Source: a virus. Taken from it: 39,280 nt of DNA. A program made the translations under genes and the position numbers. Under the pieces are notes generated by a model, which ran no database searches, had not been told where the DNA came from, and was given only the letters and a program-made list of their open reading frames with translations. Of this stretch, positions 11,242 through 37,588 are shown in pieces (the first letter of the stretch is position 1; every line of letters begins with the position of its first letter). The DNA lies in IMG/VR virus record IMGVR_UViG_3300044712_000276, positions 1-39,280 of that record. One strand, given 5' to 3'.

Positions 11242-12296
11242 GCTTCTTCGTGCAGTGCTTCAATATAAAGTTCTTTCATCAAGACTTTAAGTTTATCTTT
11301 ATCCAAGTCGGTTGTCAAGTTTTCAACATATCGATTTAAAATCGTTACCGTATCTTCTGCTTGATCTACAGTATTATCATCTTCCTCAACATCACTAAAA
11401 TCTTCTGCGATACTAATGTCCAACGCACCAACATCATATAGTTTATTGATGAACATATCGAATACATATGGATTAGTTTTGTTTGATACAACGACCTTAA
11501 CATAAGTATTCTTATACTTAGTCAAATCCATATTTGAAATTGTTTTAATGTCGTTGGTCTTATCATCGTATACAATACGATTGAACATCACATTTGGATT
11601 GCGAATGAAACTGAAAAGTCGGCTGGAAAGATCCAACACATGAAAACCTCGGTTGTCATTGTAGTCCTGCCAGGTGAGTTCATACGGGTTTCCTAGATAA
11701 TGAATGTCACCAGAGCTAGACTTATGGTGGTAATGGCCACTAAAAGTAAAATCAAAACGCTTAAAAAGATCCCGATCCAGTCCTTCTTCAGATTTCATTC
11801 CGCGATACATTGCAAAGCCAGCAATTTCAAAATGACCCATGCAAATTTCAGCTTTTGCATTCTTCAGTAAGTCCATCGACTCATCATAATTCTCAGCACA
11901 AATCCAAGGCATCATCAAAATGTTTGTGCCATTTACCGACACAACTCGGGGACTTGAAATGATATCGATATTTCCATAATCTTCAAGAACAAGTTCAGGA
12001 GAATTTACCTCATTTGTGTTCTTGTAATATGTATCATGGTTACCAACCAACATGTGTACTTGAATGTTCTTTGCTGCAAGCGGATCGAAAAACATTTTCT
12101 TTGCTCGTTGCAGAGAATAGAAGTTCACATATTTCCTACGGTCAAACGTATCACCCAGAATAAAAACGTTTTTGATACCTTCTTTCTCTAAGGTAGGAAA
12201 AAAAGTTTCCGAATAAAACTTTTCATAGAAATCCAGGAAATGAATGGAATCATTCCGAGCACCGAAATGTTGGTCGGTAATTAAAGCAATTTTCAT
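11238..12296 (-). CDS. 47: Recombination nuclease subunit gp47 (Mre11/SbcD-like)
   Basis: The 352-residue nuclease (T4 gp47 is 339) has the Mre11-type phosphoesterase motifs TDQHFG (7-12), GDTFDRR (48-54), GNHD (85-88), GHF (154-156) and GHYHH (187-191). It binds two metals and cuts DNA, with gp46 as motor. An acidic stretch, SDVEEDDNTVDQAED (near 300-315), lies in the C-terminal capping region. The start overlaps the cytidylyltransferase stop by 4 nt. Confidence 0.97.
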   Translation of the reverse strand: MKIALITDQHFGARNDSIHFLDFYEKFYSETFFPTLEKEGIKNVFILGDTFDRRKYVNFYSLQRAKKMFFDPLAAKNIQVHMLVGNHDTYYKNTNEVNSPELVLEDYGNIDIISSPRVVSVNGTNILMMPWICAENYDESMDLLKNAKAEICMGHFEIAGFAMYRGMKSEEGLDRDLFKRFDFTFSGHYHHKSSSGDIHYLGNPYELTWQDYNDNRGFHVLDLSSRLFSFIRNPNVMFNRIVYDDKTNDIKTISNMDLTKYKNTYVKVVVSNKTNPYVFDMFINKLYDVGALDISIAEDFSDVEEDDNTVDQAEDTVTILNRYVENLTTDLDKDKLKVLMKELYIEALHEEA

Positions 12297-12778
12297 TCTT
12301 TTAGGCTATTCAACTCATTAATGGTTTTTGGTTTTCTTGGTGCATCCAACACCCGTTGACGCAGTTCTGTGGTAGAGAAACTGTGTTGACGACTATTGAA
12401 ATACACTTCCATAGGAAGGTTATACCCAGTAAATTGTTTATCTCGGTATTCCTCACCGATGATTCTAACATCGATTTTGTAGGATGTCAAGATATCTTTA
12501 AGCTCTTTTTCCGTAGCATACGGTACAATTTCATCCACATACTTGCAAGCTTCCAACTGAACATAACGTTCGAACACCGACTGTATGGGTTTATTTTTGA
12601 AGCTCCTGTCGATTGTAGGATCAGTCTGTAGACCAACAATCAAGTAGTCACATTGATTCTTTGCTTCTTTCAGCATCATAACGTGACCTGCATGAAATAG
12701 GTCGAAACAGGAGCAAGTGAAGCCAACCCTCAAGCCTTGCGCTCCTCTAATTGTACCAAGTTGTGTGTTCATCATCAT
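12293..12778 (-). CDS. Cytidylyltransferase-like nucleotidyltransferase
   Basis: The 161-residue protein is a small cytidylyltransferase fold enzyme: TCSCFDLFHAGHVMMLKEAK (21-40) contains the HAGH motif, and FSTTELRQRV near the C-terminus matches the ISTTxLR motif. Relatives join CTP to glycerol-3-phosphate, ethanolamine phosphate or sugar phosphates; the substrate here is not known. The open frame could begin at 12892, but that part only mirrors the lysine-rich end of gp55. GGAG stands 7 nt before the ATG at 12778, so I start there (two more ATGs follow at once). Confidence 0.85.
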   Translation of the reverse strand: MMMNTQLGTIRGAQGLRVGFTCSCFDLFHAGHVMMLKEAKNQCDYLIVGLQTDPTIDRSFKNKPIQSVFERYVQLEACKYVDEIVPYATEKELKDILTSYKIDVRIIGEEYRDKQFTGYNLPMEVYFNSRQHSFSTTELRQRVLDAPRKPKTINELNSLKE

Positions 12779-12782
12779 TTTT

Positions 12783-13331
12783 TTACTCCAAAAAATTTTC
12801 AATGCCTTTTTTAGCGGCCTTTTCTTCTTTCTTTTTCTTTTTCGTTTCTTCAAAGGTCTCAATGAATTCTGAGATGTTGTCGTACATTTCAAATTGTCTT
12901 CCAGTAGCTTCTTCGAAGCCTAACATCTCTTGTTCATCTAGAATACCAAACTGTTCAGTTGCTTTGTATTTCACATACAGTTGCTTTTTCTCTTTTTGGA
13001 TCCTTCGTAAAAAGGCATAATAGATGATCTGGGTGAAATAGGCAAATGCATTGCTTGATTTTGTGGTATCAAAGTTCTCAAAGTACATGAGACAGTTTTC
13101 GATGCCGTCGGCTACCATTTCTTCACGAAAAGGATAGTTGATGAAGTTCGGTTTGTGGGACAAGCCTTCGGCAATTTTGATGAAACATTCACCAATGTAA
13201 TTTGGAATGTCAGGTTTCGGTTTGTTTTCTTGCTTCGCCTGCTCGACCTGCTCTTTGTACACAGTGAGTGCGGAGCAAAAATCGGCATTGTTAATGTAAT
13301 GTTTTTTGGTACTTGTATTCATATTCACCAT
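12783..13331 (-). CDS. 55: Late-transcription sigma factor gp55
   Basis: The 182-residue protein aligns with T4 gp55 (185 residues). Shared blocks are IAEGLSHKPNF (53-63), EEMVADGIENC (69-79), the NFDTTKSSNAFAYFTQI region (85-101) and RRIQKEKKQ. gp55 replaces the host sigma and reads TATAAATA late promoters. The C-terminus is lysine-rich and ends in IENFLE, comparable to the hydrophobic FL tail that ties T4 gp55 to the gp45 clamp. An alternative ATG lies 9 nt in (13322); neither has a strong ribosome binding site. Confidence 0.93.
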   Translation of the reverse strand: MVNMNTSTKKHYINNADFCSALTVYKEQVEQAKQENKPKPDIPNYIGECFIKIAEGLSHKPNFINYPFREEMVADGIENCLMYFENFDTTKSSNAFAYFTQIIYYAFLRRIQKEKKQLYVKYKATEQFGILDEQEMLGFEEATGRQFEMYDNISEFIETFEETKKKKKEEKAAKKGIENFLE

Positions 13332-30373: not shown

Positions 30374-30910
30374 TTACCGTTTGATGCCGTAAAAATAAAG
30401 ATCGAAAGAATCGGTATTTTTACTGAATTCATATTCACTGAACAATGAATCGAAATTCATTTTTTGTGTGAAGTCTTCTTCTTCCAAATTTTTGTAATAG
30501 TCCCAACCTAAATTGACAGTTAAGGGTGAACTTTGAGGCTCTTCCTGTTTTGTGCCGTGTATTTTTCTACCGGTTGTGGCGCACGAAAATACAACAAGTC
30601 CTCCAGATTTAGCTAGACGCACCATATTTTCAAATGTTTTTATGTAATAAGGATCATGTTCAAAACACTCACAGGATATGCTCACATCAAACGAATTGTC
30701 CGGCATATGATATTCGTGACCTAAACATACCACATCTACGCCTGGACCTGGACCCACATCTACACCAATGTAGACACACTTCTCGAAAAATTTTCTTACG
30801 GAACCATTAATATTCAGGCTTCCAATTTCTACAACACATTTATCGATAAAGTGTTTTTTGTATTTTTCTTTAACCTTGTGTACAAAATCAAGCTGTTCTT
30901 TATGTGACAT
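30374..30910 (-). CDS. SAM-dependent methyltransferase (class I)
   Basis: The 178-residue protein has a Rossmann SAM-binding site: VVEIGSLNINGS (27-38, motif I), YIGVDVGPGPGVD (47-59) and DNSFDVSISCECFEHD (motif near 71-86), followed by AKSGGLVVFSC. It resembles Methyltransf_11-type enzymes acting on sugars or small molecules rather than DNA methylases. It may modify surface glycans or virion parts together with its neighbours. Its start overlaps the 3' extension of the interrupted gene upstream by 11 nt. Confidence 0.82.
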   Translation of the reverse strand: MSHKEQLDFVHKVKEKYKKHFIDKCVVEIGSLNINGSVRKFFEKCVYIGVDVGPGPGVDVVCLGHEYHMPDNSFDVSISCECFEHDPYYIKTFENMVRLAKSGGLVVFSCATTGRKIHGTKQEEPQSSPLTVNLGWDYYKNLEEEDFTQKMNFDSLFSEYEFSKNTDSFDLYFYGIKR

Positions 30911-31703
30911 TAATGCTATTCCACAGTGGTCGATAATCTAAATGTGGATCTTTTTCCAGATCAGATTGAAGGTGAAAAGCTAAACTATTAATTGGTACAA
31001 GTCCCAATACGCCTCGCCGTGTCAACATATAATTTAACGATCTATTTTCTAAATTATTATTGTTTTCTTTTAGATGATCTATTAGTTAAAAGAACATCAA
31101 ATATAGATCCCAATGCTGTATGAACTGTTCATGTGAAGTCAAAAACGAACATGACATATCGTAATATTGTATCCAATATCCTCGTTTACCGACTATCACT
31201 GTTCTGGGTGTAGAAATGTTTCTATAATGTGTTTGCCACAACCAAGAATCGTTGTAAGGACTTATTAATGGTTGTGTGCCAGTCTCTGCATTGATTGTTT
31301 CATAAACTTCAACCATATCAACAATTGAATTTGTCGAAAAAAGATAATCATCTTGTACCTGATATACTAAATTTTTACCATTATCTCTTAGCCACTCGTA
31401 ACAATGTTTTATGCTTTGCATTATACCAGACTTTTCTAAAAACTGAATTTCAATTTTTACTTTATCTGAAGTGTACAATTCTTTGCTTAGATTTATGAAC
31501 TCCAATAGACTTTGGGAACAACTATCGCATATGATTGCTATATGGTGCTCTGTGTAGTCTTTATCTGTTGAACATTTTGAAACTGCCTCTAAGAAAGACT
31601 TAATGCTCTTTTTTGATATTTCTGTTCTATCTGAACTGGCATATCTTTTTTGGTTTTGATATGATTTTAAATCACATGCTTGCAGAGCATAATGTATAAG
31701 CAT
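30900..31703 (-). pseudogene. Glycosyltransferase-like gene interrupted by an in-frame TAA
   Basis: The first open part (31086-31703) codes for 205 residues and ends at TAA 31086-31088. Past this stop the same frame stays open for 61 sense codons to TAA at 30900-30902 (LENRSLNYMLTRRGVLGLV, PINSLAFHLQSDLEKDPH, DYRPLWNSI). The extension has protein-like composition and ends only as the methyltransferase begins. The first part has QVQDDY (115-120), a DxD-like motif, and SPYNDSWLW. Either a nonsense mutation has split the gene or the TAA is read through. I class it as broken, but the N-terminal product may still be made. Confidence 0.75.
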
Positions 31704-31705
31704 AA

Positions 31706-32320
31706 TTAAAAGTTTGTATTTGTTTTAATCCAATCTGAAAATCTTCCTGGTTTATGCACTTTAATGAAAATATTAACACTCTCTGCAACGTTTGACAATG
31801 TGTTGAGATTGATATCCAGTTGTTTGTTACCTAACATACCTTCATTTTGCTGTTGTAGCCAGTAATTGACAATGTTGTATGACACATCGACAACTTCCAA
31901 ATCAATATCATGGTATAAACCGAAAGTGCTATCGCTTAATTTTTTCGCAATCGATTCGAAGTTTACCTTTTGGTCAAACATCATAAATGTTTTTGGTGTC
32001 AAAATTCTCACATGTGTATAGTCATCCCAATAAACGTCACATCTGTGATGCGGTACATTGATATACCATTCCGCTCCATCTTTACTGACACGATACATTT
32101 CTTTTAGTATGTTTGTGAAAACTTTGGGGTCTTGTCCAAGATGTTCAAGAATGTTGTCAGCAGTAATTTTCTCAAAGAAGTTGTCCTGAAATGGCCACGT
32201 TGGGGTTTCAAAATCAAAAACTTGATCTGGATTACATTTACGTTCAATGTCTACGTTCCAATGGTCGTTTAATTTTTTAAACCCACAACCCATATTGAGT
32301 TTATTGTGTTCTGGTATCAT
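31706..32320 (-). CDS. SAM-dependent methyltransferase-like protein
   Basis: The 204-residue protein begins IPEHNKLNMGCGFKKLND, in which LNMGCG (8-13) is SAM-binding motif I. VDIERKCNPDQVFDFE and FFEKITADNILEHLG follow, as in methyltransferases of polysaccharide clusters, then a YRVSKDGAEWYINVPH strand. The target is unknown. The frame runs to a TTG at 32350, but AAGGAA stands 8 nt before the ATG at 32320, which lies after the sulfotransferase stop, so I use that start. Confidence 0.8.
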   Translation of the reverse strand: MIPEHNKLNMGCGFKKLNDHWNVDIERKCNPDQVFDFETPTWPFQDNFFEKITADNILEHLGQDPKVFTNILKEMYRVSKDGAEWYINVPHHRCDVYWDDYTHVRILTPKTFMMFDQKVNFESIAKKLSDSTFGLYHDIDLEVVDVSYNIVNYWLQQQNEGMLGNKQLDINLNTLSNVAESVNIFIKVHKPGRFSDWIKTNTNF

Positions 32321-32331
32321 AATAAAATTCC

Positions 32332-33129
32332 TTAAATCCAAGGAGTCCAAAAAATTTCTCGATTATATTGTTCGTATAATTCCAACCCAAGATACTCGAC
32401 ACAATTTACAGTCGTTCTGTCTAGACTGGGTTTTATTTTGTGCAAATTTGGTAAACCTACTGCCAAATCATTATATTGTTCAGTCTGTACAATATTTTCA
32501 AAATCATGTTCAAAGTGTGGTAGCTCTAAAAATTCATAGATTCTTTTCGTTTGGCTTTTTGGACTGTTACAGTAACGATTGTAATCAACAAACAACAATC
32601 TATCCAAATAACCCATAGTGACGGCATCTTTTAAATTTCTATGTGAAAGTCCCAACTCACCATCTGGTCCCGCATAATAATATGCTCTAGAAGTTATACT
32701 TGAACCTTCGCGTAAAACTGCATCCGCTCTTGTTTGGAAAAGTGGATTATCTTTACGCAGTCTCTCAAAGGATGCCAAAATCTCTGCTGGATTTCGAACA
32801 CACACAATCATTTTACATTGTCTATCGATAACGGATTCAATTTGTGGAATTAGAGAGATCCATTTTCTATCTCTATCCATAACTATTGGCTTATCGATGT
32901 GTGAATAATATCCTTGCAGCACCGAATTTAGTGTGCCACGTTTAGCACTTTCGTTTGGATATTCTTGATTCGCTTCAATGTTATTCCATGCCGAATTTAT
33001 ATTAGAGAAGATACTCGACAATGAGCTTACAGCTTCGCCGTGTATACTTGGATTTTGTTTCAACACATTAGTGATTAATGTGGAACCGGATCTTGGAAGT
33101 CCAGAAATGAAATGTATATTTTTTCCCAT
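32332..33129 (-). CDS. Sulfotransferase
   Basis: The 265-residue protein starts with FISGLPRSGSTLITNVL (6-22), the PAPS 5'-phosphosulfate loop (PRSGST). VMDRDRKWISLIPQIE and CVRNPAEILASFERL hold the second (3'-phosphate) binding region with its Arg and Ser. The protein should transfer sulfate from PAPS to a sugar or tyrosine, substrate unknown. Sulfotransferases are seen in some marine T4-like phages. It has a late-promoter-like octamer upstream, suggesting that the modification acts on virion components, which is inference. Confidence 0.85.
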   Translation of the reverse strand: MGKNIHFISGLPRSGSTLITNVLKQNPSIHGEAVSSLSSIFSNINSAWNNIEANQEYPNESAKRGTLNSVLQGYYSHIDKPIVMDRDRKWISLIPQIESVIDRQCKMIVCVRNPAEILASFERLRKDNPLFQTRADAVLREGSSITSRAYYYAGPDGELGLSHRNLKDAVTMGYLDRLLFVDYNRYCNSPKSQTKRIYEFLELPHFEHDFENIVQTEQYNDLAVGLPNLHKIKPSLDRTTVNCVEYLGLELYEQYNREIFWTPWI

Positions 33130-34237: not shown

Positions 34238-37200
34238 TTATATTATAAATCCCAAAGAATGCTGGTTTCCTGCTGAAACTACAGTCCAACTTGCGGAACC
34301 AATCTGAACAGGACTACTTTTATTTATTGTGGTTCCATCACCAAGTTGTCCCGATACATTGCTACCCCAAGAGAACGTCAATTTGTCGGTTCTAATACCT
34401 AAAGTGTGTAAGCCTCCAGAAGATACTGCCGTCCAACTGCTGGCGCCAACCTGAACTGGGCTTGAAGTATTCGTGATAGTTCCATTGCCGAGTTGTCCAG
34501 AAGTGTTTAATCCCCATGCAAATAGAAGTCCGTCTGATCGAATTGCGGATGTGTGTGTACCTCCAGCGGAAACTTTTGACCAGGTGTTGCTGCCGACCAG
34601 AACAGGTGTATTTTTATTTACTGTAGTGCCGTCGCCGATTTGCCCCACACTGTTTAATCCCCAACCAAATAACAGTCCATCTGATCTAATGCCTGTTGTG
34701 TGGTTATATCCCGCCGACACTGCTGTCCAACTGCTTGTACCGATCTGAACTGGACTGCTTCTGTTCGTGATAGTGCCGTCACCCACTCGACCATTAGTGT
34801 TGAATCCCCAACCAAACAATAGTCTATCTGTTCGAATTGCCATTGTGTGTGTTCCACCCGTTGATATGGCAGACCAACTGCTGGCACCAATTTGAACTGG
34901 ACTACTCTTGGAAATTGTGGTACCGTCCCCGAGTTCACCCGAAGAATTTAATCCCCAAGTAAATAATAAATTGTCTGACCTCAACGCTGAAGTGTGATTA
35001 GCACCTGATGACACCGCAGTCCAACTGCTTGCACCAATCTGTACTGGGCTAAACTTGGCGATAGTTGTTCCGTCTCCGAGTTGTCCTGATGAATTTAACC
35101 CCCAAGTGAATAACAACTTATCGGATCTTATCGCTGAGGTGTAACTTTGTCCTGCTGAAACCATTGACCAACTTAATGTTCCTACTTGAACAGGACTCAA
35201 AGGAGAAATTGCAGAATTTCCAATAATGACTGGACTGCTTCTGTTTGACAGGGAGGAATCACCAAGTTGTCCAACGTTGTTTATACCCCATGCATATAAC
35301 ATGCCTGTTGTATCGATAGCTTCAGCAAAATAAACGTTACTTCGTTTTATTGAAGACCATGTATTCGAACCAATTTGAACTGGACTGCTTTTATCTATAG
35401 TGGTGCCGTCTCCGAGTTGACCGAAAGCGTTATAACCCCAACTGAAAAGTATGCCATCTGATCTTATTGCCGACATTTCGAAAAAGCCGGCGCTTACGTC
35501 TGACCATGTACTTGGACCAATTTGAGTCGGTCTACTTTTGTCTATAGTGGTGCCGTCTCCGAGTTGACCATTGCTGTTGTATCCCCAAGTGTAAAGTAAT
35601 CCGTCCGATCTTATACCACCCGATAAAGATGAGCCTGCTGTTACTTTATTCCAAGTCGAAGTTCCAACTTGCACCGGAGATGACACAGTTAAGTTTGGAA
35701 TGTTATCACCAACTGAGACCGGACTGCTCTTGCTGATTGTGGTGCCGTCACCTAGACGACCAGATGCATTATTACCCCATGCAAATAGAATGCCGTCTGA
35801 TCGAATTGCTGCACCATATATTGTTTTGCTTGCAGATATCGCCGCAGTCCAACTGCTGGAACCAACTTGAACTGGACTGCTTTTATCGACTGTTGTTCCG
35901 TCGCCGAGTTGACCTGATGAATTTAATCCCCATGCAAATAATCCTCCGTCCGATCTAGTTGCAAGAGTGAAAGATGCTCCCGCTGACACCGCAGTCCAAC
36001 TGCTGGAACCAATCTGTACCGGACTGCTCTTGCTGATTGTGGTGCCGTCGCCTAATCCTCCTGACGTACCTGCGCCCCATGCAAATAATTTTCCATCTAC
36101 GGTGATTGCTAATTTGTGTGAAAACCCTGAAGTTAATGCAGTCCAACTGCTTGTGCCAATTTGTACCGGACTGCTCTTGCTGAGTGCTGTTCCATCACCA
36201 ATCAGACCACTTGTGCCTAGACCCCAAGAAAACAATGCGCCGTCTGATCTGATTGCTAGTCCACTTGTTGCACCAGCCGACACCGCAGTCCAACTGCTGG
36301 AACCAATCTGAACGGGACTACTTTTGTTGACTGTGGTGCCGTCACCTAAAATTCCCGCTATGTTATTACCCCAAGAAAACAACAAACCATCAGAACGAAT
36401 TGCTGAAGCATGTGTTGATCCAAAAGAAACTGCCGTCCATGTGCTGCTGCCTATTTGTACCGGACTTGATCTAACCGTTATTGTTCCGTCACCTAATTGA
36501 CCGCTACCATTGGCACCCCAGGTGAATATTCGACCATCGGATCTGAGACCTATTGTGGAAGTTAGTCCTGCGGACACCGCAGTCCAACTGCTGGCACCAA
36601 TCTGAACAGGACTACTTTTACTTACTGCTGTTCCGTCACCTAATGCACCAGATGTTCCCACACCCCATGTGAACAGTAAACCATCCGAACGTATTGCTGC
36701 CGTGTGACTTAATCCGGCAGAAATTACAGACCAGCTATAAAGGTCTGTTACCTGTCCAAGTTCTCCTAAAGAACCTGCACCCCAAGTGTATAAATTGCCA
36801 CCAAGTCTTATTGCCACGGTATGTGTTCCGCCAGCAGCTACTGCTGTCCAACTGCTTGTGCCGATCTGCACCGGACTACTTTTAGTGGTGATAGAACTAT
36901 CGCCTAATTGTCCTCTTGCATTTGAACCCCATGCAAACAATGCACCGTCTGCACGTATTGCCGTCGTATGTGTTCCACCCATTGACACCGCAGTCCAACT
37001 GCTTGTGCCAATTTGAACTGGGCTACTTTTATTTACTGCTGTTCCATCACCCAAAACACCTGAGATTCCTGCACCCCAAGTAAACAAAGCACCGTCCGAA
37101 CGTATTGCGGAGGTCGATGAGTTGCCCGCTGACACCGCAGTCCAACTGCTGGAACCAATCTGAACAGGACTACTTTTGTTGACTGTGGTGCCGTCACCAA

Positions 37201-37588
37201 TTTGACCGGTCAAATTCAGTCCCCAACCAAATAATAAACCGTCGGACCTAATTGCTACAGTGTGACTGTAGCCTGCTGAAATAGCTGTCCAACTTTTGGG
37301 TGACTCAATAATACCTATTTGACCGCTTGAGCCTAAACCCCAAGCATATAAGAAATAATAAGATGGAGACAGAGAACCTAATGATGCAAACAGTTGACCA
37401 ATATCAGTCGAATTACTTCGAAACCCTGTTGTGCCATATGGTGTACCCAATGAAGCATTGGCATAAAAATTAGAAATGTCCACACCCGAAACGTCAAAGT
37501 TGACGTCCGATATTTTTGTGGTTGTGCCTATTGGCTCAAATAAGGTATCTAAATCAACAGAATTCGAAAGAAAATTCGACGTTGGCAT
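34238..37588 (-). CDS. Giant RCC1-repeat tail fibre/adhesin
   Basis: The 1116-residue protein has an N-terminal region (1-78) with three related short motifs (VDLDTLFEPIG, VDISNFYANASLGT, TDIGQLFASLGS), as in marine phage fibre anchors. From about residue 79 to the end are 21 RCC1-type repeats of roughly 50 residues, each with a LF.WG.N..GQLGDGTT core, then KSSPVQIG, SSWTAVSAG and H..AIRSDG. Twenty-one equals three seven-bladed propellers. Repeats 1 and 5 are shortened. RCC1 propellers bind partners through loops; here a receptor-binding role is inferred from position beside a tail fibre. Confidence 0.85.
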   Translation of the reverse strand: MPTSNFLSNSVDLDTLFEPIGTTTKISDVNFDVSGVDISNFYANASLGTPYGTTGFRSNSTDIGQLFASLGSLSPSYYFLYAWGLGSSGQIGIIESPKSWTAISAGYSHTVAIRSDGLLFGWGLNLTGQIGDGTTVNKSSPVQIGSSSWTAVSAGNSSTSAIRSDGALFTWGAGISGVLGDGTAVNKSSPVQIGTSSWTAVSMGGTHTTAIRADGALFAWGSNARGQLGDSSITTKSSPVQIGTSSWTAVAAGGTHTVAIRLGGNLYTWGAGSLGELGQVTDLYSWSVISAGLSHTAAIRSDGLLFTWGVGTSGALGDGTAVSKSSPVQIGASSWTAVSAGLTSTIGLRSDGRIFTWGANGSGQLGDGTITVRSSPVQIGSSTWTAVSFGSTHASAIRSDGLLFSWGNNIAGILGDGTTVNKSSPVQIGSSSWTAVSAGATSGLAIRSDGALFSWGLGTSGLIGDGTALSKSSPVQIGTSSWTALTSGFSHKLAITVDGKLFAWGAGTSGGLGDGTTISKSSPVQIGSSSWTAVSAGASFTLATRSDGGLFAWGLNSSGQLGDGTTVDKSSPVQVGSSSWTAAISASKTIYGAAIRSDGILFAWGNNASGRLGDGTTISKSSPVSVGDNIPNLTVSSPVQVGTSTWNKVTAGSSLSGGIRSDGLLYTWGYNSNGQLGDGTTIDKSRPTQIGPSTWSDVSAGFFEMSAIRSDGILFSWGYNAFGQLGDGTTIDKSSPVQIGSNTWSSIKRSNVYFAEAIDTTGMLYAWGINNVGQLGDSSLSNRSSPVIIGNSAISPLSPVQVGTLSWSMVSAGQSYTSAIRSDKLLFTWGLNSSGQLGDGTTIAKFSPVQIGASSWTAVSSGANHTSALRSDNLLFTWGLNSSGELGDGTTISKSSPVQIGASSWSAISTGGTHTMAIRTDRLLFGWGFNTNGRVGDGTITNRSSPVQIGTSSWTAVSAGYNHTTGIRSDGLLFGWGLNSVGQIGDGTTVNKNTPVLVGSNTWSKVSAGGTHTSAIRSDGLLFAWGLNTSGQLGNGTITNTSSPVQVGASSWTAVSSGGLHTLGIRTDKLTFSWGSNVSGQLGDGTTINKSSPVQIGSASWTVVSAGNQHSLGFII
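34320..37330 (-). repeat. Approximately 150-bp tandem coding repeats (RCC1)
   Basis: Twenty-one imperfect units of about 150 bp within the adhesin gene. The block CCAACTGC(T/G)...CCAATCTGAACTGGACT, in plus-strand view, recurs nearly unchanged, so copies could recombine with each other. Some junctions are nearly identical at the DNA level, which points to recent duplication or gene conversion. Confidence 0.8.

Follow-up and report, generated by a model that had tools for sequence, protein, structure and literature searches.

A predicted glycosyltransferase gene in the surface-chemistry cassette of a phage genome, very probably interrupted by a recent private nonsense codon or a one-base sequence error

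In pelagimyophages and cyanomyophages, a hypervariable host recognition cluster that carries tail fibres and glycosyltransferases borders gp14, and these glycosyltransferases have been proposed to modify the surface of the host and to block coinfection (PMC7029224). The window analysed here, that is, the whole stretch of 39,280 bases, is an IMG/VR virus contig with T4-like gp13, gp14 and gp15 as well as terminase, head and sigma genes. The nearest named relatives of its terminase are cyanophages, with approximately 55-56% identity. Genes for surface chemistry (glycosyltransferase-like, sulfotransferase and methyltransferases) form a cassette between the tail-fibre/RCC1-repeat region and gp13. 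The closest gp13-gp15 relatives gave no match to the interrupted gene in the stretches searched, several of their contigs being short, and neither did the nearest gp15 relatives, so gain and loss of the cassette genes is to be expected.

Several other genes of the window are worth recording. A protein of 1116 residues, composed largely of RCC1-type repeats, is encoded at 34238-37588 (minus strand) between the tail-fibre-like and the glycosyltransferase-like genes, and it is possibly a receptor-binding or fibre protein. The sulfotransferase-domain gene (32332-33129, minus strand; PF00685, E = 2.5e-16), whose PHROG family is marked as of unknown function, is kept beside the glycosyltransferase cassette in many relatives. 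Between a heptose-kinase/adenylyltransferase-like gene with a mechanically assigned TTG start and the late sigma factor gene there is an overlap of 110 nt (12293-12892 and 12783-13331, minus strand); family matches of the former begin at residue 56 and its true start is probably placed further downstream.

The interrupted gene and its surroundings consist of the following features, in the order of transcription:

31706..32350, minus strand: upstream methyltransferase-like gene, ending 2 nt before the ATG of the interrupted gene; several relatives have it in the same cassette.
30900..31703, minus strand: predicted GT-A/GT2 glycosyltransferase-like gene of 267 codons, interrupted by TAA at codon 206 (direct reading of the frame, homologues, model and PDB matches).
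31086..31088, minus strand: premature in-frame TAA at codon 206 (translation; no homologue with a stop at the aligned site).
30903..31085, minus strand: 61 codons after the TAA, the conserved C-terminal part of the enzyme (26-sequence alignment and conservation).
30900..30902, minus strand: second TAA, the gene end of the family itself (C-terminus of L041 and conserved junction).
30374..30910, minus strand: downstream SAM-dependent methyltransferase (phrog_32762), with its ATG inside the interrupted gene and an overlap of 11 nt.

Translation of the minus-strand frame from 31703 to 30900 gives 205 residues, a TAA, 61 residues and a second TAA, all in frame, and thus bears out the preliminary description, in which the frame was said to be kept past the first TAA up to the second. 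The read-through stretch of 61 codons is the longest among the 44 genes of the window, the runner-up having 38 codons. It had also been claimed that the extension ends where the next gene begins, with the spacing usual for the operon. The methyltransferase ATG lies at 30910, which gives an overlap of 11 nt with the second stop; the distance from the first stop to this gene (175 nt) is large for the cassette.

The joined protein produced chance-level matches only, both with tblastn against phages and plasmids and against Pfam, PHROG, NCBIfam and PDB. Three weak initial matches, once translated, appear unrelated, and a single-sequence scan of viral contigs revealed no homologue. The family was reached by a DNA pattern for VYxx[EQ]DDY, with third positions fixed, applied to viral contigs and followed by tblastn. 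The motif-based scan and its follow-up provided 171 distinct homologous stretches, 166 of which cover residues 150-255, and an alignment-based scan provided 50 loci, with a top identity of 64% over residues 3-266. The best homologues are 59-64% identical at full length. Distant members, chiefly from Pelagibacteraceae and Mycobacterium, came from a scan of bacterial genomes; these DDY-motif, glycosyltransferase-like sequences (L201-L280, including Rhodospira and others) are 20-29% identical to the window protein. A different architecture is met in several relatives (L035:47-1435, and also L036, L077, L083, L098, L131 and L136), which have open frames of about 450-484 residues where another domain follows the glycosyltransferase domain on the C-terminal side. 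In L035 this additional domain matches Pfam Methyltransf_11, whereas in the window and in several close relatives the methyltransferase is a separate, overlapping downstream gene.

At the column of codon 206, 134 of the 171 stretches have a sense codon, 34 have an alignment gap and not one has a stop, and residue 206 is a variable position in the family. The sole stop inside any aligned stretch belongs to L089 and is found near the C-terminus. The preliminary description had weighed an interruption (nonsense mutation or sequence error) against regulated readthrough, with full-length homologues carrying a sense codon at residue 206 as the sign of interruption; such homologues exist in numbers, none has a stop at the site, and interruption is the option supported. 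Since every homologue covering the site aligns on both sides of the window's stop, the 61 codons are more than a chance frame. Short open stretches may indeed arise by chance after stops, and searched on its own the extension matched nothing in Pfam, PHROG or NCBIfam, but its 61 codons correspond in the alignments to the C-terminus of full-length homologues and hold five family-invariant residues. It is exceedingly improbable that the 205-residue protein is complete and that the frame after it arose by chance or is a small gene of its own, and this reading is refuted by the alignments across the stop.

The end of the gene is also shared with the relatives. The C-terminus of L041 (SIDVT, followed by its stop) aligns exactly with that of the window (SINVT) at the second TAA. 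In the window, L041, L158 and L160, the methyltransferase starts within the 3′ end of the glycosyltransferase gene with an overlap of 11 nt, and the corresponding overlap is 23 nt in L038, L081 and L103. Because both the homologue ends and the methyltransferase overlap are conserved, the second TAA is, as judged by sequence comparison, the ancestral gene end, and a protein of 205 residues is not a form of the family.

The alignment of 26 sequences contains 10 invariant columns, and five of them lie after the stop (E219, P237, H244, D252 and W261). Against 39 homologues, the window averages an identity of 0.54 over the extension and 0.48 over the body, and a gap of this size falls well within the range seen among intact homologues; for instance, identity to L151 is 72% in the extension against 64% in the body. 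The extension deviates at none of the 12 columns conserved at ≥90%, and its differences amount to 0.08-0.18 at the second codon position versus 0.37-0.63 at the third. By these measures the extension is as conserved as in intact relatives and has not drifted, which argues for a stop that is either recent or a base error. When a near-identical strain or contig was sought none was found, and the stop is seen in a single record. On a rough estimate, a real recent mutation would be somewhat more probable than a one-base error of the sequence.

An intact extension, conserved as in the relatives, would also fit efficient readthrough, though in the window lineage only. The C that follows the stop, noted in the preliminary description as a weaker termination context, was confirmed and is found as the +4 base at only one of the 29 TAA ends in the window, which is weak evidence by itself. 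Several observations speak against regulated or leaky readthrough with two products of the enzyme gene, one short and one long. The stop is private to the window genome and absent from all homologues; the short form would end within a predicted helix and lack invariant residues, and so is no natural domain; the RNA downstream of the stop shows no better folding than shuffled versions of it (z = 0.56); and TAA is the usual terminator (29 of the 44 window genes). The readthrough option raised beforehand is thus left unsupported, with a stop that is not conserved, no RNA structure downstream and an ordinary terminator, and is considered very improbable. It is hardly more probable that the window lineage alone doses a surface-modifying glycosyltransferase by TAA readthrough or suppression, or that the stop is a population on/off polymorphism of the enzyme and the coupled methyltransferase.

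Phages with reassigned stop codons exist, and TAA could in principle stand for an amino acid in this phage. However, a genome-wide change would place TAA within many genes, whereas here TAA ends 29 of the 44 genes and the other read-through stretches do not exceed 38 codons. Reassignment is accordingly given next to no credence. The only tRNA gene found in the window, which covers part of the genome, is a tRNA-Met. Regarding the remaining terminators, 15 genes end in TGA and none in TAG, and for nine window genes the first in-frame stop met upstream is TAG.

The identity of the enzyme is supported by relatives and by modelling. The window protein itself has no match to Pfam Glycos_transf_2 (PF00535), and 13 of the 26 aligned relatives match it (best E = 3.1e-8). 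Single-sequence structure prediction was uninformative (pLDDT 41), and the alignment-based model of the read-through protein reached a pLDDT of 91.4 and a pTM of 0.91, with values mostly of 85-95 in the extension. In this model the stop interrupts a predicted helix of residues 198-209. GT-A enzymes are among the best PDB fold matches (E about 1e-6, TM-scores of about 0.5), and nucleotidyltransferases of the same superfold are likewise among the matches. Within the motif VYQVQDDY, residues V113, Y114, D118, D119 and Y120 are invariant in the 26 sequences, and its position suggests a DxD-type acidic metal-binding motif. Taken together, sequence and model support a predicted glycosyltransferase of GT-A fold, similar to GT2, and the initial naming of the product as glycosyltransferase-like is upheld by the Glycos_transf_2 matches of the relatives and the GT-A fold matches.

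The most plausible account, held with high confidence on sequence grounds, is that of a glycosyltransferase gene with a nonsense codon that is either recent and private or due to an error of one base in the sequence. One codon would have turned into TAA, either in the genome of this aquatic T4-like phage or in its consensus sequence. The resulting product of 205 residues would be deprived of the C-terminal quarter, including five of the 10 family-invariant residues, and would presumably be inactive. Termination about 175 nt early would probably also lower the translation of the downstream methyltransferase, because its start overlaps the natural stop and the coupling between the two genes would be broken.

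What looks like a short and a long gene is one enzyme with a premature stop, and the annotation should show one glycosyltransferase gene with an interruption. A real stop would make this an instance of a phage that has lost, from a fast-changing cassette, an enzyme for modifying the host surface. An otherwise uncharacterised GT2-like family, present in many phages and in genomes of Pelagibacteraceae and Mycobacterium, is now placed in this cassette. The finding is an ordinary one, namely the loss of one enzyme from a variable cassette, possibly together with lower translation of the coupled methyltransferase.

Among characterised enzymes, SpsA of Bacillus subtilis and N-acetylglucosaminyltransferase I (GnT I), both of GT-A fold, are found within the best PDB fold matches, and a profile search likewise ranked SpsA first (E = 0.002); nevertheless, their identity to the window protein is 9-11%, at TM-scores of about 0.4-0.5. 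The uncharacterised GT2-like proteins of phages and bacteria with VYxx[EQ]DDY (e.g., in the IMG/VR loci L151, L041 and L158) are homologous to the window protein over the full length, and several of them share its neighbours and the methyltransferase overlap, but their frames are intact and the stop occurs in the window copy only. With respect to the gene neighborhood, the window phage is not assigned to the pelagimyophages or the cyanomyophages, and the terms sulfotransferase, methyltransferase and RCC1, all three of them represented in the window, are absent from the paper on the host recognition cluster (PMC7029224). Like that cluster, the cassette of the window is a variable region by the neck genes, and it fits the picture drawn for those phages (PMC7029224).
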